Assembly (NCBI RefSeq): GCF_015689195.1
Contig: NZ_CP065044.1
Coordinates: 1,364,001 to 1,428,000, forward strand
DNA: 64,000 bases
Reading direction: 5' to 3'
Source of the DNA: Pectobacterium aroidearum
GTDB lineage: Bacteria; Pseudomonadota; Gammaproteobacteria; Enterobacterales; Enterobacteriaceae
A program made the position numbers and the translations under genes. Below the pieces are notes generated by a model. It had not been told where the DNA came from. It saw nothing but the letters and a program-made list of their open reading frames with translations, and did not search any database. Positions 36,932 through 63,347 of the stretch are shown here, piece after piece (the first letter of the stretch is position 1; every line of letters starts with the position of its first letter).

Positions 36932-37723
36932 ATGGCGGAACTCATAGTGCAGCAGGAAGGTCATCTTAATCAGGTTGGGACAGGGTTTTTCCAACAGGGA
37001 AGCGAGGAGTCATTAAGCGCTGATTACTGGCATCAATGTCAACGGCGGTATACTTTCCAGCCCATTTACCGAACATCAGGTAAATTAATGGCTATTGAGT
37101 TACTGACTTCCGTTTTTTCTCCTACCCTGCCGCAAAAATTTATCTCCCCTGAAAAATACTTCGCGAATATTGATGTTGAAACCCGTCTGTTAATTATTGT
37201 AGAACAACTGCAACTTTTATCTCAGTGGAGTTTTCGATTTACTCGCGACGATCTTTTTGCCTCCGTCAATATTGATGGTATGACGCTACTGGCGTTGCAA
37301 AATAATCTGGAAGCCAAACGTCTGATCGCGGCGATGCCTTGGATTCGTTTTGAAATGGTCGAAAATCAGGGAGGGCTGCCAAAAGAAATATTAACCAAGC
37401 TCCCTGAGGCGCAAACACTGTGGCTGGATGATTTCGGTTGTGGTATGGCGAATTTTTCATCACTGATGCTGGCTCAGTATGATTGCATTAAAGTGGCGCG
37501 TGAACTTTTTATTCTTCTCCAACAGAGTGGGGAAGGGAAGACGGTGTTTCCTGCACTGATCGCTTTGCTATCGCGTTTTTGCAATTATGTCGTTATTGAG
37601 GGAATCGAAACCAAGGAGGAGTGGGCAATTGTTCAGGCATCGCATGCTTACGCCGCCCAAGGGTACTACCTCTCGCGTCCTCAGCCATTTGAGAATTTTG
37701 AGGCGCTGAAGCTCGAACTATAG
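36932..37723 (+). CDS. pdeH: Cyclic-di-GMP phosphodiesterase PdeH (YhjH-like)
   Basis: 263 residues, a stand-alone EAL domain. Alignment from memory with E. coli PdeH is close throughout (YTFQPIYRTSGKLMAIELLT; SVNIDGMTLLAL; WLDDFGCGMANFSSL; AAQGYYLSRP). Catalytic residues are present: Glu56 (ELL in place of EAL), Asn113, Glu141, Asp166-Asp167, Lys187, Glu223 and Glu226, so it should hydrolyse c-di-GMP to pGpG. In E. coli it keeps c-di-GMP low in motile cells. Here it stands next to a diguanylate cyclase and a c-di-GMP-controlled adhesin locus, and by position is likely to promote adhesin release. Confidence 0.9.
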   Translation: MAELIVQQEGHLNQVGTGFFQQGSEESLSADYWHQCQRRYTFQPIYRTSGKLMAIELLTSVFSPTLPQKFISPEKYFANIDVETRLLIIVEQLQLLSQWSFRFTRDDLFASVNIDGMTLLALQNNLEAKRLIAAMPWIRFEMVENQGGLPKEILTKLPEAQTLWLDDFGCGMANFSSLMLAQYDCIKVARELFILLQQSGEGKTVFPALIALLSRFCNYVVIEGIETKEEWAIVQASHAYAAQGYYLSRPQPFENFEALKLEL

Positions 37724-38509
37724 GTGGTAACCTATTGTTTAGGCTATCACTTCTGTATTAACGCATTGCTGTATATCCCTCCATTTTGCTTCACCATATT
37801 CATTCATTATATTTCCTAATATTTCATTGTTGCACACAACATCGTCTCCTTAGCCGCTCAGCATTCTTTTCAGATTCACAATCGCTAATTCTGTGTTTTG
37901 TTTTATTTTTGTTATTTAATTCTTGTTTTATTTGTTATGGCAGTGTTTAATTTTGATGGCGTAGTGAGAAGAGATACTGCTGATTTTGCATCAAATTATG
38001 ACATATATAATCAAACGCTTGCGTTAATGATTTTATTTTTTTCTTTTAATTATTTGATTTTTAATGGTAAAAAAATATAATGTTTACTGTTAACGATCAA
38101 AAATCATTTTATGATAGATTTTGTTGATTAAAACAATGATACTTATTGGTATAATTGATTTGCTTACAAAAAATTGATGTTCAGAATATATCGCTATGTA
38201 CCCCTAGGAATATTTTTTTATTCCATTAGAAAAACTTATAACCCGAACAATTACTACTATTAAATTAAGATACTCTTTTGAATTTGTTGTTTTTATCTGC
38301 GCACAGTCATATGCGAGGGCTTTATGCTGACGTTGCCATGTTTCTAAATACTCCTGCTTCATGGAGCATTTTTTCTTTCATCCTTTCTGCTCTCCGGAAA
38401 TGCGCCAGTCCCGAAAATCGACGGGGTAGGGGTTTGTTACCGGGATTTTTCGTCATCAGCGTTGTGATTTGTACGATCAGGACCACTCGGGCCTGAGGAG
38501 AGTGTTATT
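37724..38509. other. AT-rich intergenic region between pdeH and the cyclase
   Basis: 786 bp, markedly richer in A+T than the neighbourhood. It contains a 6-bp hairpin GGAATA/TATTCC (38207-38224) around a T-run, many poly-T tracts, and a 48-codon frame from an ATG at 37937 (MAVFNFDGVVRRDTADF..., with a hydrophobic C-terminal half) that lacks a ribosome site. I see no supported gene. Such AT-rich DNA is a typical H-NS target and may regulate the cyclase. Confidence 0.5.
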
Positions 38510-40024
38510 GTGTATGAAATTATAATAACCCTGCTATTGCTGTTGTTATTGTTTTCTTCTGTGAAAAATAGAAAAATTAAACAAAAGTTTAAAACTGAGC
38601 AGAAAAAACAAGATTTTCTCAACATGACTTTCTTTGCGATGGAATATAGTCCTGCTTCAATTATGATCGCAGATGAAAATTGTGAAATTATTTACGTCAA
38701 TCGTCAGTTTATTACCATGTCAGGCTATATGCCGGATGAGGTTATCGGCAAAAAAACGAATATATTAAATTCAGGTATGACTAACGCCAGCGTCTATGAA
38801 GATCTGTGGTCTACCATAAATAAAGGTAATGTTTGGAGTGGTGAGTTCGTTAACCGGCGTAAAGATGGACAGCTGTATTGGGAAAAAGCCAATATCGTTA
38901 AAATATATAATAAAGCGAGTAACACAACCCAGTATGTCGGCATTAAGTTAGATATCACGGAAAGAAAATCACAGGAACATCATGATAATTCATACAATCG
39001 TGCGCTGGAGCTGTTATCAAGCGGCGCGCCGCTGAAAGATATTCTTGATGCGATCATTTTTAGCGTTGAGGAAAAAAATCCTGGTCGTATCGTTTGTTCT
39101 GTTTTACTGGTTGATAAAGACAAAAAATGTCTGACGCTTGGATCGGCGCCTAGCCTGCCAGGTTTTTATAAAAATGCCATTCACAACGTAAAAATTGCCG
39201 ATGGTGTAGCCTCTTTTGGTACTGCGGCCTATACCGGAAAGCGCGTCATTGCTGACGATATTTCGGTCCATCCGCATTGGTCGTTATATAAAGGGCTCGC
39301 GTTATATGCCGGGCTGCGTTCCTGTTGGTCTGAACCTATCATCGGCCAGAACAAAGAAATATTAGGTGTTTTAAGCGTTTACCATCGCAAAGTGTATGTA
39401 CCGACCGAGGACGAAATTTTCTCTATTGAGAAATCGGCACAGCTGATCGCGATCGCCATCGAGCGGTATCATGCTATTGACATGCTGCGGCGCAGCGAAG
39501 AACACTATCGTCAATTGGCGCACTATGACTCATTAACGTCGTTGGCTAATGGCCTGACGTTTGCCGAGCAAATGGAACAGGCGATTTTGTTATCCAAACA
39601 AACGGGTAGAAAAATCGCACTGATGTTCTTGGATCTCGATAAATTTAAACAGATAAATGATTCGTTCGGGCATGCTGTTGGCGATTTACTCTTGAAAGAA
39701 GCGGCAGCGCGTATGCGCGGTGCCGTTCGCGATTCGGATACGGTATATCGCCGCAGCGGTGATGAATTTATTATTCTGCTTCAGGGTATTAAGGAAATTG
39801 ACAATACGCTTTATGTTGCAGATAAAATTCATAACGCATTGAACAAGCCATTTGAGATCGATGGAAAAACGCTGGATATATCATGCAGTATCGGTATTGC
39901 GCTGTATCCAGAACACGGAACTGATTCTCTGACATTAGCAATTAATGCTGATTCAGCCATGTATCAGGCTAAAGCCATGGGGCGCAGCCAAACTCAGATT
40001 TATCACAATATGAACGATCATTGA
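38510..40024 (+). CDS. Membrane PAS-GAF-GGDEF diguanylate cyclase with SGDEF motif
   Basis: 504 residues with a GTG start, chosen because TGAGGAG lies 9 nt upstream. One N-terminal membrane helix (about 2-16), PAS domain (about 41-155: YSPASIMIADENCEIIYVN, ending DITERK), GAF domain (about 161-318), GGDEF domain (about 336-500). The active-site motif is SGDEF (416-420), not GGDEF, and the conserved LTxLPNR start is altered to LTSLANG. The RxxD inhibitory site RDSD (407-410) is at the standard 5-residue spacing. It probably makes c-di-GMP, but non-canonically; I recall a P. atrosepticum study of an SGDEF cyclase affecting a multi-repeat adhesin. PAS and GAF suggest sensing of a small ligand. 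Confidence 0.88.
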   Translation: MYEIIITLLLLLLLFSSVKNRKIKQKFKTEQKKQDFLNMTFFAMEYSPASIMIADENCEIIYVNRQFITMSGYMPDEVIGKKTNILNSGMTNASVYEDLWSTINKGNVWSGEFVNRRKDGQLYWEKANIVKIYNKASNTTQYVGIKLDITERKSQEHHDNSYNRALELLSSGAPLKDILDAIIFSVEEKNPGRIVCSVLLVDKDKKCLTLGSAPSLPGFYKNAIHNVKIADGVASFGTAAYTGKRVIADDISVHPHWSLYKGLALYAGLRSCWSEPIIGQNKEILGVLSVYHRKVYVPTEDEIFSIEKSAQLIAIAIERYHAIDMLRRSEEHYRQLAHYDSLTSLANGLTFAEQMEQAILLSKQTGRKIALMFLDLDKFKQINDSFGHAVGDLLLKEAAARMRGAVRDSDTVYRRSGDEFIILLQGIKEIDNTLYVADKIHNALNKPFEIDGKTLDISCSIGIALYPEHGTDSLTLAINADSAMYQAKAMGRSQTQIYHNMNDH

Positions 40025-40067: not shown

Positions 40068-41429
40068 TTATCTTTCCCGTAACGCTTCTGCTTTTGCTCG
40101 AATAATCGGCTTTAACAAATAGCTGAGGATCGTTTTCTTGCCCGTGATTATATCAACTGAGGCCACCATGCCTGGAATGATAAGAAGTGGTTTATCGGCT
40201 GAGCCTAAATAATTCTTATCAGTCCGTAAACGAATAATATAAAAGCTGTTCCCTTCTTTATCGGTTACGGTGTCCGGGCTGATTTGTTCCAACTGGCCTT
40301 TTAGACCGCCATAGATGGTGTAGTCGTAGGCCGTCAATTTTATTACGGCATCCTGACCTGGGTGCAAGAACGCAATATCCTGTGGACGAATTCTGGCTTC
40401 AACTAACAGTTTGTCGTCCAGTGGAACAATTTCCACCAGGTCGCTACCCGGTTGAATCACTCCGCCGATAGTATTCACCAAAACCTGCTGCACGATACCA
40501 CGGACGGGGGAGACAACCAGCGTACGGTTTACTCGGTCTTCGAGTGCTTTGCCCGTGGCTTCAATTTTGTTCAGATTGGTCTGTGCTTCACTGAGCTGAG
40601 ATAACGCCTCGCTTTTATAACGGCTGCGCGTTTCCTCTATTTTATTCTCGCTCTCTTTAATCGCAGACTCTGCCCGGGGAATCGAGAGCTTGATGGAATC
40701 AAGCTGACCACGGGTTTCGACTTCTGCGCGGCGCAGGCGTAAAACTTCTACCTTAGAAATGGCGCCTTCTGCGATCAGCGGTTCTGACATTTTAATTTCT
40801 TGTTGCAGCAGGCCCAGGCTATTGCGGAACTGAATTTCTTTTGCGGAGAAATCCCTCAGTTCCTGGCGACGTTGGATCAACTGCTCTTCCAGACCAGACA
40901 CCTCATTGTGGAGCTGCTGGCGGCGGCTGTTATAAAGTTCTTTTTCTCCGGCCGCGATTTTAGGCGCTTGCGTCGTAATTTCTTCCGAAAGTACGAGTTC
41001 CCGATCGTTGATTTCGGCGTTCAGGCGCTCGATACGTGATAGCAGTGCAAGCCGGTCGGCTTCGGTTTCACCGACATTGGAAGCGAAGCGCGTATCATCA
41101 AGGCGCAGCAAAGGATCGCCCGCATTAACGACCTGGCCTTCATGAATGAATACCTCTGTGACAATGCCGCCTTCCAAGTTTTGGATTTTTTGCAATCGGG
41201 AAGACGGGATGGCTTTACCGTCACCCCGGGTGACTTCATCGATATCCGCCAGCCCAGCCCACAGTATGAAAAACAGGAAAAAAGCGCCGATAGCCCATAG
41301 CGTGAAGCGAATAGAACGCGGTGAATCCTCGGCCATTGCCCGGCTTACTTCCGGCATCGTTTGCAGGCCTTCTTCATCTCCGCCGACAAAATATCGTTTG
41401 ATTCGTTTGATATATTTACCGAGACGCAT
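40068..41429 (-). CDS. lapC: Type I secretion membrane fusion protein (HlyD/LapC family)
   Basis: 453 residues. One inner-membrane helix (about 43-62, FTLWAIGAFFLFFILWAGLADIDEV), then lipoyl/coiled-coil regions (RLQKIQNLEGGIVTEVFIHEGQVVNAGDPLLRLDD; long helical stretch about 115-290) and a C-terminal beta region with the HlyD family signature around ISPDTV..GNSFYIIRLR. It bridges the ABC exporter and the outer-membrane channel. Its start overlaps the lapB end by 14 nt. Together with the two genes upstream it forms the exporter for the adjacent giant adhesin. Confidence 0.92.
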   Translation of the reverse strand: MRLGKYIKRIKRYFVGGDEEGLQTMPEVSRAMAEDSPRSIRFTLWAIGAFFLFFILWAGLADIDEVTRGDGKAIPSSRLQKIQNLEGGIVTEVFIHEGQVVNAGDPLLRLDDTRFASNVGETEADRLALLSRIERLNAEINDRELVLSEEITTQAPKIAAGEKELYNSRRQQLHNEVSGLEEQLIQRRQELRDFSAKEIQFRNSLGLLQQEIKMSEPLIAEGAISKVEVLRLRRAEVETRGQLDSIKLSIPRAESAIKESENKIEETRSRYKSEALSQLSEAQTNLNKIEATGKALEDRVNRTLVVSPVRGIVQQVLVNTIGGVIQPGSDLVEIVPLDDKLLVEARIRPQDIAFLHPGQDAVIKLTAYDYTIYGGLKGQLEQISPDTVTDKEGNSFYIIRLRTDKNYLGSADKPLLIIPGMVASVDIITGKKTILSYLLKPIIRAKAEALRER

Positions 41430-43650
41430 TGATTTGCCCCTTCTTCAACGCATCCATCACGATCGCTTTTGGCCCATCCGCGATAATTTTACCTTTATCG
41501 ACAATGACTAAACGATCGACAAGCGCCAGCATGGAAACCCGATGCGTAACCAGCAAAAGCGTTTTCTCTGCAATGACGGGAGCCAGAGCCTGCTTTAACC
41601 GATCTTCACTGGTGTTATCCATCGAACTGGTGGGTTCATCCAGCACCAGAATGGGGGGATCGAGCAACAATGCTCTGGCTATCGCGACAGCTTGACGTTG
41701 TCCGCCGGAGAGTTGCTGGCCGCGTTCGCCAACCTGAAGGTTATAGCCATCCGGGTGCAGACGAGCAAACTCGTTCACCCCTGAAATTTCTGCAGCTCGC
41801 AGCATCGCTTCGTCTTCGACATAGCGTGCGCCGCTAATCAGGTTATTACGCAGTGAACCACTAAATAACTGAATATCTTGAGGAACATAGCCGATATTGT
41901 GGCGTAAATCGCTGACATCTAATTGACGAGCGTCAACGCCGTCGATCAGAATATTGCCGGTATTAGGCTGATAGAGATTCACAATCAGTTTTTGCAGCGA
42001 GCTTTTTCCCGAACCGCTGCGGCCAATAACGCCCACTTTCTCACCGGGAGCGATGGTCAGACTGATACTTTGCAGCGAGCTGGTTTTTTGTTCCGGGTAA
42101 TTGAACGTCACATCGCGAAATTCGATACCGCCCCGAATGCTTTCGCGCTTCAGCGGGCGTTCGTTATCGCTACGCTCTTGCGGCAGCTGCATCATCTGTT
42201 CGGTGGTCTGCATCGTCAAACGCGCCTGTTGGTAACGACTGACCAGGCCAGACAGTTGACCTAGCGGCATGAGCGCTCTGCCGTTCAGCATGTAACAGGC
42301 AATCAACCCACCCATACTGAGCTTACCGTTAATCAGCATATAGACGCCGACGACAATCATGGCAACGCCAGCAAATTGCTGGAACCACTGCGTCAGGTTT
42401 ACCGCCAGTGAGGACAGCACTTTGGCTCGCATTTCCAGCTTGCTCAAGCTGCCAATGGTCTGTTCCCATTGGTGCTGACGTTCGCTTTCCGCATTATTGA
42501 CCTTGATGGCATCCAGACAGCTCAAGGTTTCGATCAGCGTTGCCTGCCGTTCGCTGGCAAGATGCATCGTTTTTTCAATGGTGGCAGACAGCGGCTTTTG
42601 CATCGCCCAACTCGCCAGCAAGGCGATAGGGTAGGCCAGGATGGAAACCCAGACCAGCGGGCCGCCGATGATGCCGATCACCAACAGCAGCAGCAATGTA
42701 AAAGGAAAATCGATCAGCGTCGTCAGCGTTAGTGAGGAAAGGAAGTCTCTGAGCGATTGAAATTCATGAATATTCTGCGCGAAACTACCGACCCGCGGTG
42801 GCCGGGCCTTCATCGACATACCGGTGATACGCTCAAATAGCGTGGCGGAAATAATCAGATCGGTTTTTTTGCCCGCCATATCGAGGCAAACGCCGCGCAG
42901 TGTTTTGAGTATCAAATCGAAAACAAAAGCACCGGTAACACCAATAGCCAGTACCCACAAGGTTGACATTGCCTGATTTGGCACCACCCGATCATAGACA
43001 TTCATCACAAACAGCGGTGTAGCAAGCGCGATAATGTTCACCAGCAGCGTCGCGAGCACGGCATCGAGATAGAGTGAACGTGAAAGCTTAAGCGTGTCCT
43101 TGAACCAGGATTTGGTGCGGGGGATCAGCGATGGATTTTGCAGATCGAACTGATGGCGAGGCTGGGCGAACATCACCAGACCCAGATAGTTCTGTTGCAG
43201 CGTATTGTGCTCAACGGAAATTTCCCCGCCTTCTGTTTCGCTGGGCATCAGGCGTGCACTGCCGTCAGCGTTCCAGCCTAGCAGAATCGCCGCTCTCCCT
43301 TCCCGTAACAGCAACATCGCGGGGAGCGACATATCGGAAATTTTATTCAGAGAACGTTTGAGAACGCGCCCTTGCAGCCCCGCGCGTGCAGCGGCTCTTG
43401 GAAGCAGTTTTACAGAGAGTCGCTGGTTGGCTAAGGGGAGTCCGGCGGTGAGTGTGGTACGGCTGACCGATTTCCCCTGCAAGGCACAGAGGATCAGTAA
43501 ACCATCCAATAACGGGTCATCATGACGGCTGCGAGGGTCACTATTTTCATTAGTGACCGTTTCATGAGCGACAGTCGGTTCATGGACGATAGACTCATGG
43601 GTAACTGATTTATCAGAACCCTGAGTCTCTTGTACTGAATGCAACTTCAT
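41416..43650 (-). CDS. lapB: Type I secretion ABC exporter (LapB family)
   Basis: 744 residues. After a His/Thr/Glu-rich N-tail (about 15-35) comes a degenerate C39 peptidase-like domain (about 45-165) with no convincing catalytic Cys-His pair, as in exporters of RTX adhesins that are not N-terminally processed. Membrane helices span about 195-460. The nucleotide-binding domain has Walker A GRSGSGKSS (543-551), signature LSGGQRQAVAIARALL, Walker B ILVLDEPTSS and H-loop LVTHR. It energises export of the C-terminally signalled adhesin. Middle gene of the leftward lapE-lapB-lapC unit. Confidence 0.92.
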   Translation of the reverse strand: MKLHSVQETQGSDKSVTHESIVHEPTVAHETVTNENSDPRSRHDDPLLDGLLILCALQGKSVSRTTLTAGLPLANQRLSVKLLPRAAARAGLQGRVLKRSLNKISDMSLPAMLLLREGRAAILLGWNADGSARLMPSETEGGEISVEHNTLQQNYLGLVMFAQPRHQFDLQNPSLIPRTKSWFKDTLKLSRSLYLDAVLATLLVNIIALATPLFVMNVYDRVVPNQAMSTLWVLAIGVTGAFVFDLILKTLRGVCLDMAGKKTDLIISATLFERITGMSMKARPPRVGSFAQNIHEFQSLRDFLSSLTLTTLIDFPFTLLLLLVIGIIGGPLVWVSILAYPIALLASWAMQKPLSATIEKTMHLASERQATLIETLSCLDAIKVNNAESERQHQWEQTIGSLSKLEMRAKVLSSLAVNLTQWFQQFAGVAMIVVGVYMLINGKLSMGGLIACYMLNGRALMPLGQLSGLVSRYQQARLTMQTTEQMMQLPQERSDNERPLKRESIRGGIEFRDVTFNYPEQKTSSLQSISLTIAPGEKVGVIGRSGSGKSSLQKLIVNLYQPNTGNILIDGVDARQLDVSDLRHNIGYVPQDIQLFSGSLRNNLISGARYVEDEAMLRAAEISGVNEFARLHPDGYNLQVGERGQQLSGGQRQAVAIARALLLDPPILVLDEPTSSMDNTSEDRLKQALAPVIAEKTLLLVTHRVSMLALVDRLVIVDKGKIIADGPKAIVMDALKKGQINASR

Positions 43651-43728: not shown

Positions 43729-45081
43729 TTAATTAAGGCTCGGCAACTCTGCGTGGGTGGTTACGTTTGTCAAGCTGGTACCGGCATCAGGGGCTGGGAT
43801 AGCCAAACGATTTAATAACTCTCCCATACGTGATGCGATCCGGTATTCGGTATAAAGGGAGGTGAAGCGAACTTCAACCAGACGGCGTTGTGCGGTGAAC
43901 AGCTCGTTTTCACTGTCCAGCAGGTCCAACAGCGTCCTTTCTCCCAGGCTAAATTGTTTCTGATAGGCAGTACGCACTTTCATACTGCGGTCGGCATATT
44001 CGGCGGCGATCGGCAGCTGCTGGCGCGAGTTATTTAACGCTGACCAGGCTAGCTTTAGCTCTTCACCCAGCAGGCGCAGGGCATTATTTCGCACATCCTG
44101 CGCTTCTTTTACCTGATAGGCTTTTGATTCCATGTTGGCTTTGCTGCTACCGCCTTCATACAGGTTGTAGCGCATCCTCAGCATCGCTTGCCATTCATTG
44201 TTTTGACCGCGCGTCCCATCAACGTTGTTATCCATTGTTCGAGAGAGCTCAACGTTGAGGCGTGGATAAAACGTTGATTTCGAGGCTTCATATTGCTGCT
44301 GCGTGGCTTCAATATCTGACTCTGCGGATTTCAGCGCGGGGCTGTTAGCCAACATGATGCGCTGGGCTTCCTCTAACGACGCGGGGAGTTTTATTACAGA
44401 AGCATCGGGCATCACCAAATTATCCGGCACTTTACCCACAACGCTCATGTAGTTGATTTTGGCATCGTCCAGATTGGTTTGTTCTGTCAGCACGTTATTA
44501 CGCGCCTGTGCAAGACGTGCTTCGGCCTGATCCAAATCCGCCAAGCGGCCAACGCCCTGTTCGCTGCGTAGCCTGATTTGATCGTAAATGCGCTCGTGGC
44601 TTGCCAGATTGGCTTCCGCCAGGCGGACAAATTCCTGACGTTGCAGAACATTGAGATAGACCTGAACGGTATCTAATGCCGTCGACTCACTGGTATTTAA
44701 TACTTTATAGGCGCGTGAGTTGACCGTGGCGCGTTGTCTGCCAACCTCGCTTGAGGTGGCGAAACCATCGAACACCGTCTGGCTTAAATTGATACTCGAT
44801 TCCTGACGGCTGAGTTCAACGCGTTTATTGATGCTGGCGCGTGTTGAGGGGCTATCGGTTTCTTCGCGGCCAACACCAGCACTCAGCGTAATGGAGGGAA
44901 GATATCCCCCTTTTGCTGCGCGCAAATCATGCTCGGCAGAAAAACGACTATTAATAGATGCGCTCACTTCGGGGTGGGTATAGAGCGTGCTTTTAATAGC
45001 TTCCTGGATCGTCTCTGCATACGTCGCTGTGGAAAAAACGGTAATAAAAGGCAATAAAGCGAAATGGTATCTACGAATCAT
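43729..45081 (-). CDS. lapE: TolC-like outer-membrane channel of the type I system (LapE family)
   Basis: 450 residues, signal peptide ending near Ala22 (ATYA). Two repeated outer-membrane efflux domains with long helices (ESTALDTVQVYLNVLQRQEFVRLAEANLASHERIYDQIRLRSEQGVGRLADLDQAEARLAQAR). It provides the trans-outer-membrane duct and, for LapA-type adhesins, holds the partly exported N-terminus. First gene of the unit; its promoter lies in the gap shared with the divergent adhesin gene. Confidence 0.92.
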   Translation of the reverse strand: MIRRYHFALLPFITVFSTATYAETIQEAIKSTLYTHPEVSASINSRFSAEHDLRAAKGGYLPSITLSAGVGREETDSPSTRASINKRVELSRQESSINLSQTVFDGFATSSEVGRQRATVNSRAYKVLNTSESTALDTVQVYLNVLQRQEFVRLAEANLASHERIYDQIRLRSEQGVGRLADLDQAEARLAQARNNVLTEQTNLDDAKINYMSVVGKVPDNLVMPDASVIKLPASLEEAQRIMLANSPALKSAESDIEATQQQYEASKSTFYPRLNVELSRTMDNNVDGTRGQNNEWQAMLRMRYNLYEGGSSKANMESKAYQVKEAQDVRNNALRLLGEELKLAWSALNNSRQQLPIAAEYADRSMKVRTAYQKQFSLGERTLLDLLDSENELFTAQRRLVEVRFTSLYTEYRIASRMGELLNRLAIPAPDAGTSLTNVTTHAELPSLN

Positions 45082-57400: not shown

Positions 57401-60123
57401 CTGGTGCGTCGCTGGGTGATATTGGTTATCGTCCTGTTGATGTCGCAGGTAACACTGGTGATAAAGCCGCGCTGCACATTGGCATAACACCTGTAGCTGA
57501 TGCGCCGGTAGTGAGCCTGAGCATCACCAGTGGCGCGACAACGCCGACCTCTTCGGAGATTATTAAGGTCAATGGCGGTAGCGCCAACGGTGGCTTTGAC
57601 GTACAGAATGGGAAAATTGTCGCCGTCGGCAACGGTGTCCGCGTTTGGCTGACCGAAGGGGATCCGGTACCGACGGTGGTCGGTAATGGCAAGGTCGCGT
57701 ACTACAGTCAGGGCAATACCAGCGGAGACGGCAGCTACAGCGATATTTTCGTTGTGCATTCCAATAGCGGGTATTTCTATCGACAGAGTGACTGGCCAGC
57801 CGATCGTAAGGATCATCGCGATCTGGATTCGTTTAACGGTAACCGAACGAATAACGGTAGCAGTGCGCATTCTGACTATGTGTTCGTCATGAAAGAAACG
57901 GGTTACACCTATAACGCAACCTATAGCACGAACAACAATCAGGATACGTCGGTTAACACGCTGGATGGACTGAAAGTCAACTATACCGATGGCAGCGGTA
58001 AGTCTGGTTCGTTTACCACGCAGGTCAGCAACAATATTGAAGGCGTGATCTACAGCGACGGCACGACATACACGCCGGGTACTAACAGCGCGAAAGTGGA
58101 AACGGTGCCCGGACAGGCAGGTACGCAGACACATACCATTGATGTCTCGGCAGCTCTGACCGATCGCGACGGGAGTGAAACCCTGTCAGGGATTACGCTC
58201 ACGGGGATCCCGAAAGGGACGGTGCTGACTGACCACATTAACAATGTGAAATACACCGTTGGCGATGATGGATCGTACCTCATCAAGAACGCCAATAATG
58301 CTCAGACGCTGGCTGGAAAGATTACGCTTGAAGTACCTGTTGATGCCGGTAAGTTCAACGTGGTTGCACAGGCAACATCGACAGAAATCGCCAACCACGA
58401 CACGGCGACCGGGTATTCTGCCGGAGGCGTTGAACAGTACGGGATGAGTATCGGTACGATCGGTGACGACAAGATGTCTGGCACGCATAGCCATGATGTG
58501 ATGGTCGCGGATGTCTCCGGTTTGCAGATCATTGAAGGCCAGAATTACAACATTGCCTTTATGGTCGATTCATCCGGCAGTATGTCGTCAACGGATATCG
58601 AGAATACGCGTACGTCGTTGAGCAACGTGTTTAAAAGCTTGATCAACAGTGCCAGCGGCGTGAATTCCGGTACGGTAAACGTTTTTCTGGCTGATTTTGA
58701 TACCCAGGTGGGGAAAACTATCTCCGTGAACCTGAACGACGCCAGCGCTCTGAATAAGCTGACTGCCGTATTGAATTCAATGGTTGGGGGATCGGAGAAA
58801 GGCGGCGGAACCAACTATGAAGATGTGTTCAAGACGACGGCTAACTGGTTCCAAAGCGATGTGGTGAAAAATAATGTGGGGAATAACCTGACGTATTTCA
58901 TCACAGATGGTGAGCCGACTTACTATCAGACCAATGAATCCAATGAAGTGCGCGTGAGTGACTGGTGGCAGTCGCTGAATATCGATAACATCGCCTACAA
59001 GCCAGGACAGTCCTACTCTATGGATGTACGCGGTGCTGTACGCGAAGTCATTGATAGCAAAGGTAATGTCTACCAATATGCATGGAGTGATAAGAGCAAT
59101 CAAGTCACGGGTAAGGTGATTGGTCAGGTACACGCACAGGGGGATGGAACGTATGAAATCTCCTCTCTGGGCGGCGTCGGTAACAACAGCAGTTACTGGG
59201 CGCAAGACTATCGCGGCAACTGGTACTGGGTTGATAATTCAGGCAACCGCGATGTCAGCAATACCAATGCGGCTGAGGCTTTCAATTTGTTGAAGAAGCA
59301 GTCGACCATTGAAGCGATCGGTATTGGTGCTGATCTAAATGGCGATACGCTGAAACGCTATGACACTGACGGTGTGGTTCAGGATCACATTGATCCTGCT
59401 AACCTTAATAAAGCGATCCTGGGCAGCAGCGAATCAATACATGCGGGTAATGACCAACTGAACGGTGGGTTGGGGAATGACATTCTGTTCGGCGATGTGG
59501 TGTCGTTTCCTAATATCGACGGCAACGGTATCACTGCCTTGCAGAACTACATCGGCAAGCAGCTAGGTATGCAAACCGGCGTGCCGACTGCCAAAGAGAT
59601 GCATAGTTATATTGCCACGCACAGCGCGGAGTTTGATTTGTCGTCGGCGAAAGATGGCAATGACATACTCAACGGTGGGGCAGGGAATGATATTCTTTTC
59701 GGTCAGGGTGGAAATGACACGCTGATTGGCGGAGAAGGTAATGACCTGCTCTACGGCGGCGCGGGGGATGATATCCTGATCGGTGGCCCCGGAGGCGATA
59801 CGCTCATCGGCGGTGCGGGCGCGGATATCTTTAAGTGGCAGGCTGGCGATATCGGCAACGATGTGATCAAAGACTTTAATGCCAAAGAGGGCGACCGGAT
59901 TGATTTAAGCGATTTGGTTGGCGAACTGGAAGAGGGAACCGATATCAGCCGCTATATCCGTATCACCGATAATCACGGTTCACCGACGATTGAGGTTAGC
60001 ACCGCAGGGAACTTTACGGCGGATAAAGGCGGAACGGTTGCAGTGTCGATTACGTTGGAACACTATAATGGTGCATTGCCGTCGCTTGAAAGTCTGATCA
60101 GCAAACCAGAACAGTCTAGCTGA
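45463..60123 (+). CDS. Giant LapA-type repeat adhesin secreted by type I pathway
   Basis: 4886 residues from a TTG start with AAGGAG 8 nt upstream. The N-terminal retention module (1-130: MNGVIGVIKFVIGQVFIVAL, DGKTLDLGRDSRW) carries TAAG at 103-106, the LapG cleavage-site form. After an Ig-like domain (about 165-263), 34 tandem Ig-like repeats of 104 residues run from 264 to 3799. Then come further Ig/cadherin-like segments (3800-3960), a unique beta-rich domain (about 4000-4200), a von Willebrand A domain with MIDAS DSSGS (4369-4373), RTX nonapeptides (about 4660-4785: GGAGNDILFGQGGNDTLIGG) and the C-terminal secretion signal. I found no cysteine. It should remain in the outer membrane via its N-terminus and mediate attachment and biofilm formation. 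Confidence 0.93.
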   Translation: MNGVIGVIKFVIGQVFIVALDGSQRLLVAGDRVYSGEEVVTGANGAVSITLPDGKTLDLGRDSRWSDVSNASSQGSADVANDVAAIQDAIAQGADPTQVLEATAAGNDDTGEAGDGGGGHFNPAVVLNLTAEVVTTPIGYDTAGISFTDRASSVLDGVNSSTLLTAATDTTDTTPPSVTIVINSDGTISFVFTKPPVGFDLTDINVTNGSVTNLVQDPNDPTRWTATLTPAANFEGEVRVSIPDGSYTDAAGIPGTGGSEGITVDTLPPVASISIDDVTSDNVINARESGQTIVVTGKVDNDVKAGDAVTVKVGTETYQTTVNADGKTWSVNVPGSVLAANGDISASVTTRDTAGNVTTADTNHTYGVDTVAPAASISIDDVTSDNVINASESGQTIAVTGKVDNDVKAGDAVTVKVGTETYQTTVNADGKTWSVNVPGSVLAANGDISASVTTRDAAGNVTTVNTNHTYGVDTVAPTASISIDNVTSDNVINAAESGQTIAVTGKVDNDVKAGDAVTVKVGTETYQTTVNADGKTWSVNVPGSVLAANSDVSATVTTRDAAGNVTTANTSHAYGVDTVAPTASISIDDVTSDNVINAAESGQTIAVTGKVDNDVKAGDAVTVKVGTETYQTTVNADGKTWSVNVPGSVLAANGDISATVTTRDPAGNVTTANTSHAYGVDTVAPTASITIDDVTSDNVINAAESGQTIAVTGKVDNDVKAGDAVTVKVGTETYQTTVNADGKTWSVNVPGSVLAANGDVSATVTTRDTAGNVTTADTTHAYGVDTVAPTASISIDNVTSDNVINAAESGQTIAVTGKVDNDVKAGDAVTVKVGTETYQTTVNADGKTWSVNVPGSVLATNSDISATVTTRDAAGNVTTANTTHAYGVDTVAPTASISIDDVTSDNVINAAESGQTIAVTGKVDNDVKAGDAVTVKVGTETYQTTVNADGKTWSVNVPGSVLAANSDVSATVTTRDAAGNVTTANTSHAYGVDTVAPTASITIDDVTSDNVINASESGQTIAVTGKVDNDVKAGDAVTVKVGTETYQTTVNADGKTWSVNVPGSVLAANGDISATVTARDTAGNVTTANTTHAYGVDTVAPTASITIDNVTSDNVINAAESGQTIAVTGKVDNDVKAGDAITVKVGTETYQTTVNADGKTWSVNVPGSVLAANGDISASVTTRDPAGNVTTADTTHTYGVDTVAPTASISIDNVTSDNVINAAESGQTIAVTGKVDHDVKAGDAVTVKVGTETYQTTVNADGKTWSVNVPGSVLAANSDVSATVTTRDTAGNVTTANTTHAYGVDTVAPTASISIDNVTADNVINATESGQTIAVTGKVDHDVKAGDAVTVKVGTETYQTTVNADGKTWSVNVPGSVLAANDDVSASVTTRDPAGNVTTANTTHAYGVDTVAPTASISIDDVTSDNVINAAESGQTIAVTGKVDHDVKAGDAVTVKVGTETYQTTVNVDGKTWSVNVPGSVLAANSDVSATVTTRDTAGNVTTANTTHAYGVDTVAPTASITIDDVTSDNVINASESGQTIAVTGKVDNDVKAGDAVTVKVGTETYQTTVNADGKTWSVNVPGSVLAANNDVSATVTTRDTAGNVTTANTNHTYGVDTVAPTASITIDDVTSDNVINAAESGQTIAVTGKVDHDVKAGDAVTVKVGTETYQTTVNADGKTWSVNVPGSVLAANGDVSASVTTRDTAGNVTTANTTHAYGVDTVAPTASISIDNVTSDNVINAAESGQTIAVTGKVDNDVKAGDAVTIKVGTETYQTTVNADGKTWSVNVPGSVLAANSDVSATVTTRDTAGNVTTANTSHAYGVDTVAPTASITIDNVTSDNVINAAESGQTIAVTGKVDNDVKAGDAVTVKVGTETYQTTVNADGKTWSVNVPGSVLAANSDVSATVTTRDTAGNVTTANTSHAYGVDTVAPTASITIDNVTSDNVINVAESGQTIAVTGKVDHDVKAGDAVTVKVGTETYQTTVNADGKTWSVNVPGSVLAANGDISATVTTRDTAGNVTTANTTHAYGVDTVAPTASISIDNVTSDNVINAAESGQTIAVTGKVDNDVKAGDAVTVKVGTETYQTTVNADGKTWSVNVPGSVLAANGDISASVTTRDAAGNVTTADTNHTYGVDTVAPTASISIDNVTSDNVINAAESGQTIAVTGKVDNDVKAGDAVTVKVGTETYQTTVNADGKTWSVNVPGSVLAANGDVSASVTTRDPAGNVTTADTTHAYGVDTVAPTASISIDNVTSDNVINAAESGQTIAVTGKVDNDVKAGDAVTVKVGTETYQTTVNADGKTWSVNVPGSVLAANSDVSATVTTRDTAGNVTTANTNHAYGVDTVAPTASITIDNVTSDNVINAAESGQTIMVTGKVDNDVKAGDAVTVKVGTETYQTTVNADGKTWSVNVPGSVLAANGDISASVTTRDAAGNVTTANTTHAYGVDTVAPTASITIDNVTSDNVINAAESGQTIAVTGKVDNDVKAGDAVTVKVGTETYQTIVNADGKTWSVNVPGSVLAVNSDVSATVTTRDTAGNVTTANTTHAYSVDTVAPTASISIDDVTSDNVINAAESGQTIAVTGKVDHDVKAGDAVTVKVGTETYQTTVNADGKTWSVNVPGSVLAANGDISASVTTRDAAGNVTTVNANHTYGVDTVAPTASISIDNVTSDNVINVDESGQTIAVTGKVDNDVKAGDAVTVKIGTETYQTTVNADGKTWSVNVPGSVLAANGDISATVTTRDPAGNVTTADTTHAYGVDTVAPTASITIDNVTSDNVINASESGQTIAVTGKVDNDVKAGDAVTVKVGTETYQTTVNADGKTWSVNVPGSVLAANGDVSATVTTRDTAGNVTTANTTHAYGVDTVAPTASITIDDVTSDNVINAAESGQTIAVTGKVDNDVKAGDAVTVKVGTETYQTTVNADGKTWSVNVPGSVLAANSDVSATVTTRDTAGNVTTANTSHAYGVDTVAPTASITIDNVTSDNVINAAESGQTIAVTGKVDNDVKAGDAVTVKVGTETYQTTVNADGKTWSVNVPGSVLAANSDVNASVTTRDAAGNVTTANTSHAYGVDTVAPTASITIDNVTSDNVINAAESGQTIAVTGKVDNDVKAGDAVTVKVGTETYQTTVNADGKTWSVNVPGSVLAANSDVSATVTTRDAAGNVTTANTNHTYGVDTVAPTASITIDNVTSDNVINAAESGQTIAVTGKVDNDVKAGDAVTVKVGTETYQTTVNADGKTWSVNVPGSVLAANGDVSATVTTRDTAGNVTTANTSHAYGVDTVAPTASISIDDVTSDNVINASESGQTIAVTGKVDNDVKAGDAVTVKVGTETYQTTVNADGKTWGVNVPGSVLAANGDISASVTTRDAAGNVTTANTSHAYGVDTVAPTASITIDNVTSDNVINATESGQTIAVTGKVDLDVKAGDAVTVKVGTETYQTTVNADGKTWSVNVPGSVLAANSDVSATVTTRDTAGNVTTANTTHAYGVDTVAPTASITIDNVTSDNVINAAESGQTIAVTGKVDNDVKAGDAVTVKVGTETYQTTVNADGKTWSVNVPGSVLAANGDVSASVTTRDPAGNVTTANTTHAYGVDTVAPTASITIDNVTSDNVINAAESGQTIAVTGKVDNDVKAGDAVTVKVGTETYQTTVNADGKTWSVNVPGSVLAANSDVSATVTTRDPAGNVTTANTSHAYGVDTVAPIASITIDNVTSDNVINASESGQTIAVTGKVDHDVKAGDAVTVKVGTETYQTTVNADGKTWSVNVPGSVLAANGDVSATVTTRDTAGNVTTADTTHAYGVDTTAPEIDITNFAGNDGYVSQSESKNTLVSGTSNEKKVDLVFTDVNGKSVTVHDVPVTNGKWQTNVDLSTLAEGKITAGATATDAAGNQAHDSSQAIMDITPPVAHDNAVSGTEDTPLHIGWSDLGVSSDTTSIVISSLPPVSAGTLYFNDSGSWKAVTVGQTFTAGNTDLRFTPVGNISGASLGDIGYRPVDVAGNTGDKAALHIGITPVADAPVVSLSITSGATTPTSSEIIKVNGGSANGGFDVQNGKIVAVGNGVRVWLTEGDPVPTVVGNGKVAYYSQGNTSGDGSYSDIFVVHSNSGYFYRQSDWPADRKDHRDLDSFNGNRTNNGSSAHSDYVFVMKETGYTYNATYSTNNNQDTSVNTLDGLKVNYTDGSGKSGSFTTQVSNNIEGVIYSDGTTYTPGTNSAKVETVPGQAGTQTHTIDVSAALTDRDGSETLSGITLTGIPKGTVLTDHINNVKYTVGDDGSYLIKNANNAQTLAGKITLEVPVDAGKFNVVAQATSTEIANHDTATGYSAGGVEQYGMSIGTIGDDKMSGTHSHDVMVADVSGLQIIEGQNYNIAFMVDSSGSMSSTDIENTRTSLSNVFKSLINSASGVNSGTVNVFLADFDTQVGKTISVNLNDASALNKLTAVLNSMVGGSEKGGGTNYEDVFKTTANWFQSDVVKNNVGNNLTYFITDGEPTYYQTNESNEVRVSDWWQSLNIDNIAYKPGQSYSMDVRGAVREVIDSKGNVYQYAWSDKSNQVTGKVIGQVHAQGDGTYEISSLGGVGNNSSYWAQDYRGNWYWVDNSGNRDVSNTNAAEAFNLLKKQSTIEAIGIGADLNGDTLKRYDTDGVVQDHIDPANLNKAILGSSESIHAGNDQLNGGLGNDILFGDVVSFPNIDGNGITALQNYIGKQLGMQTGVPTAKEMHSYIATHSAEFDLSSAKDGNDILNGGAGNDILFGQGGNDTLIGGEGNDLLYGGAGDDILIGGPGGDTLIGGAGADIFKWQAGDIGNDVIKDFNAKEGDRIDLSDLVGELEEGTDISRYIRITDNHGSPTIEVSTAGNFTADKGGTVAVSITLEHYNGALPSLESLISKPEQSS
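46252..56859 (+). repeat. 34 tandem 312-bp repeats within the adhesin gene
   Basis: The marker VDTVAP recurs at 312-bp steps; 56860 minus 46252 is 10608, exactly 34 units, all the same length and in frame. Protein units are almost identical (VDxVAPTASI..., KVDNDVKAGDAVTVKVGTETYQTTVNADGKTWSVNVPGSVLA), varying at a few positions such as N/H/L in VDxDV. DNA units differ mainly at synonymous sites and in mosaic fashion. Antisense frames open through this region are by-products of the repeat. Confidence 0.97.
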
Positions 60124-60182: not shown

Positions 60183-60527
60183 ATGTTTTATATCCAGCGT
60201 GACAGTGATGGCCACCTGATGAAGGTAGAAAAGAGTCCTTTTCCTGAAATGAATGGCGAGTTGCCTGATGATTCGCGCGAGGCACTGGCTTGGTTCCGTA
60301 GCCATCAGGCGGCGATGTCCAGCTTGCAGCAACTGCGGCAAAGCGATCTGGAAATGGTGCGCGTGCTGGAGGATTTAATTCAGGTTTTGATCCAGAAAGG
60401 GGTGGTGAGCATTACCGATTTCCCTCAGGCCGCGCAGCTGAAGCTGATCAACCGCGCGCAGGCGCGTGAAGCGCTGAATGGCGGGTTGAACAAGCTGATT
60501 GGTGACGATGAAGAGACGATGTTTTAA
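60183..60527 (+). CDS. Small hypothetical protein downstream of the adhesin
   Basis: 114 residues, mostly helical, no signal peptide or membrane segment. N-terminal MFYIQRDSDGHLMKVEKSPFPEMNGELPDDSREALAWF, then a helical region SSLQQLRQSDLEMVRVLEDLIQVLIQKGVVSITDFPQAAQLKLINRAQARE. I recognise the type as a short conserved protein that some genomes name misleadingly after tryptophan synthase beta, but no function is known to me. It lies 59 nt after the adhesin stop on the same strand, past a terminator-like hairpin, so it is probably expressed with the adhesin at a lower level. Confidence 0.8.
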   Translation: MFYIQRDSDGHLMKVEKSPFPEMNGELPDDSREALAWFRSHQAAMSSLQQLRQSDLEMVRVLEDLIQVLIQKGVVSITDFPQAAQLKLINRAQAREALNGGLNKLIGDDEETMF

Positions 60528-60695: not shown

Positions 60696-62648
60696 TTAGG
60701 ATCTGGCTGCTGGCGCGGGTTCACCCAGTAGCCGTCCCATGGCTCCCTGTAACCCCATGTCCTGTAGCACTTTCAGCTCACCTGCGGTTTCAACGCGTTC
60801 AGCGATAAGCGGCAGGGCAATACTATTGGTGGCACGATACAGTGCTTCGATAAACATTTGCTTATCGCTTTCCTGATCGATATTACGGATGTAGCTGCCA
60901 TCAACTTTCAGGTAAGCCAGCCCCCATTGGGACAGGTTGCCGATCATATTAAAGCGTCCACCAAAATGCTGGAGCCCCAGCGCACAGCCATGCTCATTCA
61001 ATAATTTGATTAAAGCTTCCAGTTGGGCGCTGTCTGGCAATTGATTCTCATCCAGTTCCAGAATCAGTCGACTGGCAACATCGGGCTGATGTTTTAGCGG
61101 AGCAAGCAAATCGGCGAGCAGGTGGCGATTCAGGACGGTGGCGCCGGACAGGCTCAGCGCGAGGTTGCCGTCGTGCTGGCGCAAATAATCCAACACTTCG
61201 CGCAGCATTGTCTGATCCAGACGCGTATCCCAGCCAAAGCGTTGGATCCACGGCAGGAAACGGCCCGCGGCGATACTGTTTCCTTGCTCATCCTGAATAC
61301 GCGCTAGTACCTTGTGATGCAGCACCTGACTGGGATCGTCACACGCGACGACGGGTTGCAGGAAAAGCTGCAAGCGTTCCTGTTCAAGGATCGGATCGAG
61401 CAGGTTAAACCATCTATGGCGATCGGTTTCGATCTGTTCGGCACTGACGGATGGGATCTCGCGAGGGGCGGTGGTATCGGTATTGCTTTCGGCTTGTGTG
61501 AGCGCCTGATCGCCCTGAATAAACAGGGATTGTGCGGTGTCGCCGGGACGGAAAGGCACCATACCGAATTGGGCGACAGGGGAGACGTCGGTTTCGCCCG
61601 TCAGATGCAACGTTTCGATATTGCGCGCCAGTTCGCCAATCAGTGCATAGGCTTCTTTATCGACCAGCCCTGGACAGAACAGCGCAAATTCTCCCCCGCG
61701 GATACGTGCCAGAAGACTTTCTGTATTCGTATGCTGCTTTTGTGTTTTACGCAGAATATGCCCAACAGAGGCTAACAGCGCATCGGTACGCTGGCCGCCC
61801 AGTCGCTGATTCATCCCCGCCAGATCCTGAACGCGAAGCATAATAAGGAAGCCGGGTGCCGTCTCTTCATCAGCCAGCTTATCGTTGAACTGCATGTCAA
61901 ACGCACGACGGTTATTTAATCCGGTTTGTGGATCCTGATAGGCATCCTGACGTAAGCGCTCGCTCCGTTCGGCTTCTTCTTCAAACAGTGTTTTGAGCTT
62001 GCTGACCATCAGATTCATCGCCTGTGCGACACGGCGGAATTCCGGCGTATTGGGTAAATCCGGCTGGCTAAGGAACTCTCGACGGGTAATCGCCAGCGAC
62101 TGATCGACAATATAATCGAGGGGGCGTAACTGGCGGCGCAGGAACAGCGCGCCAATAAACACGCCCAGCGTGCCGCAGCCGAGCAGCCACAGGAAGGTTG
62201 CGGTACTGCTGCGCCACAGTCGGGTCACCGCGAACATCGGGTGGCTGATAACTTCGACTTTTGCTGCCTGTTCCCAGCCGCGCATCACGATGGCTTCGCC
62301 CGCGCCGGGTTGCAGGTTCACTAACCGGACAAACCAGCCCGGTACGTCAGGGATATCCGGCGATGCAGTACGCTCCAGCGTGACGTTGCCGGTTTTTAAA
62401 TCCCGCACGCGAATACTGGAAAAATAGCCGCTGTCGAAAATCGAGCTGACCATCAGTTCGACCATGGCTGGATCATCGATATTCGGCGTCAGGGAAAGCC
62501 CAAGCGCGGTGGCGGCATCCTGAGCGTGAGAGTGAAGCTGGTTGTTGTACTGTTCACGCGAATTTTCCAGACTGACGAAAAAGCTCCCGCTGAAAATGAT
62601 TAGCACAAACAGGCAGATGGCTATCAGTAGTTGTTTGTATAGAGACAT
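60696..62648 (-). CDS. lapD: c-di-GMP receptor LapD (degenerate GGDEF-EAL)
   Basis: 650 residues. Membrane helix about 5-25, periplasmic domain to about 150 with GW at 124-125 (Trp125 is the LapG-docking residue I remember from Pseudomonas LapD), second helix about 151-170, HAMP-like S-helix, GGDEF domain with RGGEF (317-321) and EAL domain beginning QPVVACDD with KVLAR (446-450) in place of EVLAR. Both catalytic motifs are altered, so it should bind rather than make or cleave c-di-GMP. Bound, it sequesters LapG through the periplasmic domain. lapG lies directly upstream with 9 nt between. Confidence 0.93.
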   Translation of the reverse strand: MSLYKQLLIAICLFVLIIFSGSFFVSLENSREQYNNQLHSHAQDAATALGLSLTPNIDDPAMVELMVSSIFDSGYFSSIRVRDLKTGNVTLERTASPDIPDVPGWFVRLVNLQPGAGEAIVMRGWEQAAKVEVISHPMFAVTRLWRSSTATFLWLLGCGTLGVFIGALFLRRQLRPLDYIVDQSLAITRREFLSQPDLPNTPEFRRVAQAMNLMVSKLKTLFEEEAERSERLRQDAYQDPQTGLNNRRAFDMQFNDKLADEETAPGFLIMLRVQDLAGMNQRLGGQRTDALLASVGHILRKTQKQHTNTESLLARIRGGEFALFCPGLVDKEAYALIGELARNIETLHLTGETDVSPVAQFGMVPFRPGDTAQSLFIQGDQALTQAESNTDTTAPREIPSVSAEQIETDRHRWFNLLDPILEQERLQLFLQPVVACDDPSQVLHHKVLARIQDEQGNSIAAGRFLPWIQRFGWDTRLDQTMLREVLDYLRQHDGNLALSLSGATVLNRHLLADLLAPLKHQPDVASRLILELDENQLPDSAQLEALIKLLNEHGCALGLQHFGGRFNMIGNLSQWGLAYLKVDGSYIRNIDQESDKQMFIEALYRATNSIALPLIAERVETAGELKVLQDMGLQGAMGRLLGEPAPAARS

Positions 62649-62657
62649 AGCCTACCC

Positions 62658-63347
62658 TTACTCCTCAATTGAAAACCCTTCGGCACGCATTTTGGTTAAT
62701 ACATCCTGCCAGCGTGAAAGTCGTTTACTGTCACCGACGCGTTTGTTGCTGCCGCTGGCTCCGGGCAGCCAGAGGCCACCGCCATTAAAGGCGTACACCG
62801 GAACTAAATCAGTGCGCTCTGTCGCGGGTTGGATCTTGTCGGTCAGATTATCCAGCACCAGCGGAATCGAGGTGGGCGTTGGATAATAGGTGACCACCAT
62901 ATGCGCCTTATTCAGACGCAGGGCTTTAACATAGGTAATACGTAATTTATCCGCCGGGACGCCTAAATGGCGCAGCGTAAAATACTTGGCGAGCGCGTAA
63001 TCTTCGCAGTCCCCGGCACCTTTACGTAGCGCCTCAATCGGGGTTGCCCAATAATCTTCCTGATTCCAAACGACAATATCATCACGGAACAGCATGCGGT
63101 CATTAAAAAATTGGTTCACGCTACTGAGTAGAACCTTTTCCTCTTTATTGCGGGAAGTGGCCAACAGCGTCTGCCACTCGTCTATTCGGCGGCGAGCATC
63201 GGGCGTTGCCGGGCCATAAAGCTGCTCGGTACGCTGATTGATGGTAATAAAATCCCAGTCCGCGCGCAGAGAACCCGCCAGCAGAAACAGCAGACAGCTA
63301 ATAAAGAAGAGCTTGTAACTGGAGAGTCTGAACCTGGGGAGTCGCAC
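62658..63347 (-). CDS. lapG: Periplasmic cysteine protease LapG
   Basis: 229 residues with an N-terminal hydrophobic signal (about 11-28). Transglutaminase-like fold (DUF920/peptidase C93). Triad Cys114 (GAGDCEDYALAKY), His149 (KAHMVVTYY) and Asp166 (LVLDNLTDKI); Asp113 and Glu115 beside the Cys match calcium-binding positions known for LapG. It cuts LapA-type adhesins between the alanines of the N-terminal TAAG, here 104/105 of the adhesin, releasing it from the cell. First gene of the lapG-lapD unit. Confidence 0.93.
   Translation of the reverse strand: MRLPRFRLSSYKLFFISCLLFLLAGSLRADWDFITINQRTEQLYGPATPDARRRIDEWQTLLATSRNKEEKVLLSSVNQFFNDRMLFRDDIVVWNQEDYWATPIEALRKGAGDCEDYALAKYFTLRHLGVPADKLRITYVKALRLNKAHMVVTYYPTPTSIPLVLDNLTDKIQPATERTDLVPVYAFNGGGLWLPGASGSNKRVGDSKRLSRWQDVLTKMRAEGFSIEE

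Follow-up and report, generated by a model that had tools for sequence, protein, structure and literature searches.

The interval from position 36932 to 63347 of a 64,000-nucleotide stretch of Pectobacterium aroidearum DNA (contig NZ_CP065044.1, positions 1,364,001 to 1,428,000; referred to here as the window) carries the published MRP/Lap system of Pectobacterium, namely a LapA-type giant adhesin with its LapEBC exporter, LapD and LapG, beside a PdeH-type phosphodiesterase (PDE; 36932..37723, + strand; equivalent of P. atrosepticum ECA3271) and a diguanylate cyclase of PAS-GAF-SGDEF architecture (38510..40024, + strand; GTG start; ECA3270 equivalent). We consider it quite probable that the two enzymes are a clade-wide housekeeping pair serving the shared pool of cyclic di-GMP (c-di-GMP) and not reserved for the adhesin, that the promoter of pdeH for the sigma factor FliA has been weakened, and that the output of the cyclase is probably gated in part at its mRNA leader. 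The initial annotation had placed all these genes in this interval, and it was right about both the gene set and its boundaries; a LapA/LapD/LapG retention switch with a linked PDE and cyclase is likewise supported across the genus. Its further picture of a self-contained switch, in which PdeH couples motility directly to adhesin retention, needs correction.

Such an adhesin switch locus is already known in Pectobacterium. The MRP type I secretion locus of P. atrosepticum, ECA3262-ECA3271, was reportedly described by Perez-Mendoza et al. in 2011. Papers citing that work name ECA3266 as the adhesin, ECA3270 as an SGDEF cyclase shown to be active and ECA3271 as the PDE (PMC6584795, Table 1; PMC3974145), and the genomic island HAI15, drawn as ECA3262-ECA3270, was predicted to be conserved in all organisms examined there (PMC2718846); the initial annotation was right that a P. 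atrosepticum version had been published. The cluster occurs in all 12 Pectobacterium species compared in another study, where the length of the adhesin gene varies greatly and the adhesin and LapG of P. c. odoriferum are called pseudogenes (PMC6963963). In 2025, a cheA mutant was found unchanged in the signs of adhesin and c-di-GMP on Congo Red, and cross-talk between motility and adhesins was left open (PMC12310338).

The linkage of the two enzymes is tight throughout the genus. All 25 Pectobacterium genomes have the PDE (broken in one), the cyclase and LapG, and the gap between PDE and cyclase measures 780-794 bp in every one of them (786 bp in the window). Chance linkage of the pair was therefore rejected, and the adjacency is not confined to a single strain. 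PDE and LapG lie on one contig, 18-27 kb apart, in 16 of these genomes and on different contigs in the other nine. The genome with the broken PDE, Pectobacterium sp. PL152 (G020; L088, L089, L217), also has split pdxJ, acpS, lapB, lapC and lapD, and these split genes are likely to be sequencing errors rather than biology. The cyclase of the window shares 97-99% identity with its counterparts in named Pectobacterium genomes. Among the best 80 segments of a cyclase scan of named genomes, 26 loci reach at least 83% identity and the next best segments at most 51%. These loci belong to Pectobacterium, Samsonia, Brenneria, Prodigiosinella, Dickeya, Symbiopectobacterium, Lonsdalea and one genome labelled Serratia marcescens. 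The last (L214 / G046) is probably mislabelled; its PDE groups with Symbiopectobacterium at a support of 100/100, and no other Serratia was identified. Hence the gene order pdeH-cyclase-lapEBC-adhesin-lapDG, which had been proposed for comparison across Pectobacterium, Dickeya and Serratia, holds in the first, only in part in the second, and in the third for this single genome so labelled.

The partial conservation in Dickeya bears on whether the enzymes are dedicated to the adhesin. In a family survey with one genome for each of 149 genera, the PDE was matched at E 1e-30 in 52 genera, once in each, and at 60% identity or more in eight. All eight have the cyclase beside the PDE, after yfhL, and all eight have LapB; LapG is present in six. 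The two others, Dickeya (G121) and G038, keep PDE, cyclase, LapB and the small gene orf114 (described below), while LapG was not found anywhere in either genome and adhesin, LapE and LapD were not found at the locus. Thus in two of eight genera the enzymes occur without their supposed target at the locus. Adhesin, lapE, lapD and lapG were likewise not found in the loci of D. oryzae and D. undicola. Exporter genes persist with no adhesin found at the locus in D. oryzae, which keeps lapB and a LapC shortened to 278 residues (L206, 11529-12365), and in G038, which keeps lapB (L082, 4415-6598); these genes may be relics or may have changed their substrate.

These observations speak against a self-contained switch, that is, one whose PDE and cyclase serve chiefly the LapD beside them, and we regard that arrangement as unlikely. 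The genome of the window (5.0 Mb, single contig) has 20 GGDEF matches, 19 of them above the cut-off, including the cyclase and LapD. Outside the clade, nine further genera with LapG have lapG-lapD-adhesin clusters with orf114, and no PDE of this type was found in the stretches read around LapG in any of the nine (up to about 20 kb per side, much less at the contig ends of G166, G080 and G043). In D. zeae, moreover, the apparent orthologues PDE14950 and DGC14945 belong to a set of three proteins that dominate the global c-di-GMP pool; deletion of the former reduces swimming by about half, and deletion of the latter gives maximum swimming (PMC7733949). The persistence of the pair in Dickeya without LapD and LapG at the locus and the role of its apparent orthologues in the pool of D. 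zeae together point to a shared pool and not to a private circuit.

At the opposite extreme, the adjacency might be purely historical, a Lap island having been inserted beside a resident pdeH whose PDE and neighbouring cyclase have no particular role for the adhesin. In favour of this, the block lies between yfhL, which follows pdxJ-acpS, on one side and a gene that we take from its sequence to be murQ on the other. The PDEs of the clade also form one group (support 100/99), and ECA3271 falls just outside HAI15 as that island is drawn (PMC2718846). However, the cyclase lies inside the island and affects type I secretion according to a citing paper (PMC3974145), and none of the eight survey genera has this type of PDE without the adjoining cyclase, so that no PDE-only ancestor is seen. 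A purely historical adjacency seems quite improbable.

The claim of direct coupling rests on PdeH being a flagellar gene. E. coli yhjH (pdeH) indeed depends on FliA, its expression dropping from 511 to 2 without fliA (PMC4183435). Upstream of pdeH in the window, a weakened FliA (sigma-28) site, TGAAGTTT-N11-GTCGATGA, lies at 36857..36883 (+ strand); at the same place, TAAAGTTT-N11-GTCGATAA is found in all five Brenneria. A scoring matrix allowing one spacing only was built from 28 distinct Pectobacterium fliC and ycgR sites (scores 13.0-24.7) and scanned over the 300 bases upstream of pdeH, with G020 and L216 omitted. The score is at most 10.0 in all 24 Pectobacterium scored, below the weakest fliC or ycgR site (13.0), and the best site stands at -75 in 19 of them. 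The E. coli-type pdeH scores at least 16.7 in 19 of 22 genera (those of 44 such genera for which a locus was available), and other members of the PDE/cyclase clade score at least 14.3 in 11 of 15, with 21.3 in 5/5 Brenneria. The Serratia-labelled locus scores 9.7, owing to spacing. As controls within Pectobacterium, a FliA site was found at fliC within 300 bases in 24/25 genomes and at ycgR within 300 bases in 13/25 and within 600 bases in 25/25. A second matrix, trained on the same 15 E. coli sites from chromatin immunoprecipitation (ChIP) that it scored (15 of 22 E. coli promoter rows used), gives Pectobacterium pdeH sites up to 12.9, five strongly FliA-dependent promoters 16.4-21.2, and the other ten 9.8-22.0.

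Taken alone, the site in the window is hardly beyond chance, since 11 of 100 and 5 of 200 shuffles contain one as good, and the window holds 111 matches at three mismatches, mostly in the adhesin repeats and elsewhere. Because of its constant position and the sites of the relatives, it is read as a remnant. The pdeH FliA site of Pectobacterium is weakened, though not necessarily lost. In 22 of 24 Pectobacterium, pdeH is also preceded by an extended -10-like element, TGATATAAT (within 36800-36931 in the window). With the FliA site weakened in 24/24 Pectobacterium while fliC and ycgR keep theirs, direct coupling of motility to the adhesin through PdeH is only partly upheld; it gains plausibility in Brenneria, Symbiopectobacterium, Samsonia and Prodigiosinella, where Lap genes coexist with a good FliA site.

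Several points weigh against reading the pair as pool enzymes with reduced flagellar input. First, no FliA site was found upstream of pdeH in any of three Lonsdalea, yet the adhesin cluster is kept there. Second, the functional E. coli promoters of trg and flgKL score only 7.1 and 9.4 on the Pectobacterium matrix, and the Pectobacterium pdeH site may still work weakly. Third, D. zeae 14945 and 14950 are taken as orthologues from their domain order (PAS-GAF-SGDEF; EAL-only, YhjH-like) and neighbouring locus tags. Fourth, a citing paper states that ECA3270 regulates type I secretion (PMC3974145), in keeping with a cyclase more closely tied to the adhesin. Finally, neighbours shared by the members of one clade may simply have been inherited together, in which case they say nothing on coupling either way. 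The fourth point also favours the self-contained switch, as do the tightness of the PDE-cyclase linkage, the plausible wiring in the four genera named above, and the appearance of both ECA3270 and ECA3271 among the genes up-regulated when P. atrosepticum is starved and cross-protected (PMC5230779). Against that switch stand the survival of both enzymes without the adhesin, the many other GGDEF matches and the weakened FliA site, and the housekeeping role for the pair remains the preferred reading.

A second control point probably lies ahead of the cyclase. The spacer between PDE and cyclase, compared in the window and in 25 of 26 named loci (L216 omitted), is 766-812 bp long and very unevenly conserved. 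The mean majority in the same eight alignment rows is 0.80 over its last 345 bases, 0.81 over the preceding 135 and 0.55 over the first 300; the region upstream of pdeH gives 0.64, and the divergent region between lapE and the adhesin gives 0.66, with one 25-base block at 0.95. The strongly conserved leader region corresponds to 38050-38509 of the window. It contains an extended -10-like element, TTGGTATAAT, whose TATAAT lies at 38150..38155 (+ strand); GGTATAAT is present in 21/21 rows and TTGGTATAAT in 19/21, and the element would presumably act as a promoter.

Downstream of this element, a leader open reading frame (ORF) of seven codons, MLTLPCF*, with a Shine-Dalgarno (SD)-like sequence occupies 38324..38347 (+ strand). 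Exactly seven codons and the SD-like sequence are kept in all 42 loci compared, namely 25 from Pectobacterium and 17 from Samsonia, Brenneria, Prodigiosinella, Dickeya, Symbiopectobacterium, Lonsdalea, G038 and the Serratia-labelled genome, and in 21/21 alignment rows. The peptide has 12 variants of the form M-[LP]-x-[LF]-[LP]-[CW]-[FIL]; its fifth codon is CTA in 17/21 rows and TTA in 3/21, a first-position change that preserves leucine, and CCA in the window. A second frame, ORF2 (38338..38496, + strand; 52 codons), starts inside the leader ORF, and its TGA directly abuts the cyclase SD. Its ATG is kept in 21/21 rows and its 52 codons in 18/21 (10 codons in both Dickeya and 33 in one Brenneria), with an SD-like sequence in 0/21. 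Its ratio of nonsynonymous to synonymous change (omega) is 0.49, against 0.62 and 1.15 in the other frames, for 23 of 24 Pectobacterium (L013 was missed by the start pattern), and becomes 0.62, against 0.65 and 0.71, when Brenneria and Samsonia are added. As an ordinary protein gene ORF2 is thus a weak candidate, with low coding constraint.

Two pairing elements flank or cover the cyclase SD. In the first, P1, an anti-SD segment (CUCUCC; 38388..38395, + strand) is complementary to the cyclase SD region (38497..38504, + strand). Eight of eight pairs can form in 18 of the 20 rows of a leader alignment that omits L208 (the three Lonsdalea rows all show eight of eight), and seven of eight in the other two; L208 has a one-base loss in the P1 region, and another alignment used 18 of 21 rows. 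In the second, P2, a hairpin lies just 5′ of the cyclase SD (38477..38496, + strand), with two pairs changed on both sides, which 15 of 500 shuffles reach. P1 and P2 together have 98.3% of cells paired and a covariation score of 0.142, each reached by 0/500 shuffles; this support stems from P2. Covariation by itself does not single out P1 (241/500 shuffles as good), which is conserved but not covarying. A globally stable leader RNA is likewise not supported, with z values of +1.36 and +1.44 and with 182/200 and 95/100 shuffles folding at least as well. No Rfam family was found in the leader at the gathering thresholds; three sub-threshold matches to eukaryotic families are taken as chance. A covariance model was built from the final 133 bases. 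Under stricter filters, with no more than 22 candidates scored in any genome, it detects a single copy per genome in 8 of the 149 genera, always at this cyclase; they are the eight genera that have the cyclase. These include G038, outside the training of the model (E 2.0e-25; seven-codon ORF present). In the genome of the window no further copy was found among 150 candidates scored. A description of this leader was not found in searches of open-licence papers, and the main text of a paper on P. atrosepticum small RNAs, as far as its extracts go, contains no 'ECA327' and nothing on the cyclase; a conserved cyclase leader with control elements is thus apparently undescribed.

From the arrangement of the two frames, the hairpin, the anti-SD segment and the SD, translational gating of the cyclase is predicted. 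In its specific form, which we put forward tentatively and which may well prove wrong, it would be a translational switch new to c-di-GMP enzymes. A seven-residue leader peptide would be made from its own SD, and its frame would overlap the start of the SD-less ORF2 that stops at the cyclase SD, this SD being otherwise closed by CUCUCC and flanked by a hairpin. Pausing of ribosomes on the leader, whose fifth codon is the leucine codon CUA in most rows, or binding of RsmA would set the cyclase level, and adhesin retention in Pectobacterium would then be tuned by nutrient or stress state to a greater extent than by the flagellar sigma factor. A competing account holds that the leader is conserved for transcriptional control or for binding of RsmA/CsrA rather than for gating of translation through its ORFs. 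This is a real possibility, if somewhat short of an even one. It agrees with four GGA motifs, each present in 18-19 of 20 rows, with the weak coding signal of ORF2, with folding no better than that of shuffles and with the equal conservation of the 135 bases upstream of the leader; in addition, cyclase mRNAs are among the targets that CsrA represses in E. coli, and in Y. pestis hmsE two leader ORFs had been predicted but proved not to be expressed (PMC10294631). It does not readily account for the constant length and SD-like sequence of the leader ORF in 42/42 loci, the leucine-preserving changes in codon 5, or an ORF2 that lacks an SD of its own and ends at that of the cyclase.

By analogy with the Pseudomonas family, LapEBC would export the adhesin, which would then be held at the outer membrane. 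At high c-di-GMP, LapD is expected to bind the nucleotide and hold LapG; as c-di-GMP falls, LapG would cut the adhesin at TAAG and release it, as established knowledge of these families predicts for the adhesin and LapG of the window. The SGDEF cyclase and the PdeH-type PDE would set a shared pool that in Pectobacterium would also govern motility; both would feed LapD, and proximity may help. Under a weakened FliA promoter, flagellar input to pdeH would be reduced, and the tie between flagellar status and adhesin release is probably looser than in E. coli-like or Brenneria-like relatives. Cyclase output is probably gated in part at the conserved leader.

The existence of the locus adds little to what was published. 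What changes is the idea of a private switch, since both enzymes appear to act on the whole cell and outlast the adhesin in Dickeya. By-products are the weakening of a pdeH FliA site in one genus and a conserved tiny-ORF leader before the cyclase; in a related genus, the apparent orthologue of this cyclase is a dominant source of c-di-GMP. If the leader does gate translation, it would give c-di-GMP signalling an input independent of the PAS and GAF sensor domains. Of all parts of the locus, the leader most deserves an experiment.

The remaining features fit the family assignments. The PDE matches the NCBIfam equivalog PRK11596 with 390.5 bits (cut-off 190) and has the motifs ELL, DDFG and EGIE. 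The cyclase has an RRSGDEF motif with an RxxD I-site. SGDEF is kept in 25/26 named loci (SGDKF in L208), and SGDEF with the I-site, by pattern, in the window and 24/26; in L216 the arginine of the I-site is replaced by a stop. On the - strand follow lapC for an HlyD-type adaptor (40068..41429; TIGR01843), lapB for an LssB-type type I secretion ATPase (41416..43650; TIGR03375, 982 bits, cut-off 693) and lapE for a TolC-type outer membrane protein (43729..45081; TIGR01844). The adhesin gene, the ECA3266 (MRP) equivalent, lies at 45463..60123 (+ strand; TTG start) and encodes 4886 residues with a 312-bp repeat in 33.9 copies, Big domains, a VWA domain, RTX repeats and TAAG at residue 103. With this N-terminal TAAG-type site, the repeats, the C-terminal RTX region and the adjoining LssB-type exporter, it fits a retained adhesin of the LapA type. 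In the named loci the LapG site is TAAG in 17/26; among L207, L214 and L219 it is AAAG in P. polonicum and PAAG in Symbiopectobacterium and the Serratia-labelled genome. The pattern was not found in 6/26, two of which are the Dickeya loci without the adhesin. The lapD gene (60696..62648, - strand; equivalog NF045673, 1086.6 bits, cut-off 1020) encodes a c-di-GMP receptor with degenerate GGDEF and EAL domains and a LapD/MoxY periplasmic domain. Periplasmic cysteine protease LapG (62658..63347, - strand; equivalog NF045674, 380.1 bits, cut-off 320) aligns with a solved LapG-like protease (PDB 4u65, chain E; E 3.8e-83). Strand and spacing suggest at least five transcription units (pdeH; cyclase; lapE-B-C; adhesin-orf114; lapG-D), so that the locus is a cluster and not an operon.

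Between adhesin and lapD lies orf114 (60183..60527, + strand; 114 residues), a Lap-associated protein gene without annotation that, like the spacer between PDE and cyclase, goes unmentioned in the initial annotation. It is present in the Lap locus of all 17 genera examined (8/8 in the clade and 9/9 outside), usually between lapD and the adhesin and, in G035, between the adhesin and lapE, and it is kept in Dickeya, where adhesin and lapDG are missing from the locus. No Pfam or NCBIfam match was found, and the best PDB sequence match has E 0.38. A structure modelled from three sequences with modest confidence (pLDDT 70.8) suggests a beta pair and two long helices, with no Foldseek match at E 0.001. 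One relative occurs in PLSDB, on a Halomonas replicon. LapG itself is found in 15 of the 149 genera, with an in-frame stop within the match in two (G137, G141). G033 (L179, L180) has one lapG-lapD pair flanked by two adhesin/exporter sets, each with orf114, and G043, outside the clade, has other GGDEF/EAL genes near its LapG cluster.

The window PDE is an equivalog of E. coli PdeH (YhjH) by NCBIfam. In E. coli the gene stands at a different chromosomal place, and its FliA site is strong, whereas that of Pectobacterium is weakened. The citing papers give the P. atrosepticum MRP locus the adhesin, exporter, SGDEF cyclase and PDE that the window has; their extracts reveal no difference in layout from the window and do not mention the leader ORF, the weakening of the FliA site or the conservation of orf114. 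LapD of Pseudomonas fluorescens has the motifs PxWF 103, GWxQ 124 and LW 144 at residue numbers identical to those of the window LapD (PMC3032553), and the LapA/LapD/LapG system of that species shares with the window the degenerate RGGEF and KVL sites, the LapG equivalog and the TAAG site; it differs in that PDE and cyclase adjoin the cluster in the window. D. zeae DGC14945 is a PAS-GAF-SGDEF cyclase with a locus number adjacent to that of an EAL-only, YhjH-like PDE (PMC7733949, PMC5113947), and this pair was studied for the global pool, motility and biofilm. The leader is likened by its layout to the CsrA-controlled E. coli iraD ORF27 and Y. pestis hmsE, in which short ORFs overlap or abut the SD of the regulated gene and GGA motifs occur as they do here (PMC10294631). 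It differs from both in that its ORF has seven codons, is kept in 42/42 loci and belongs to the cyclase gene itself.

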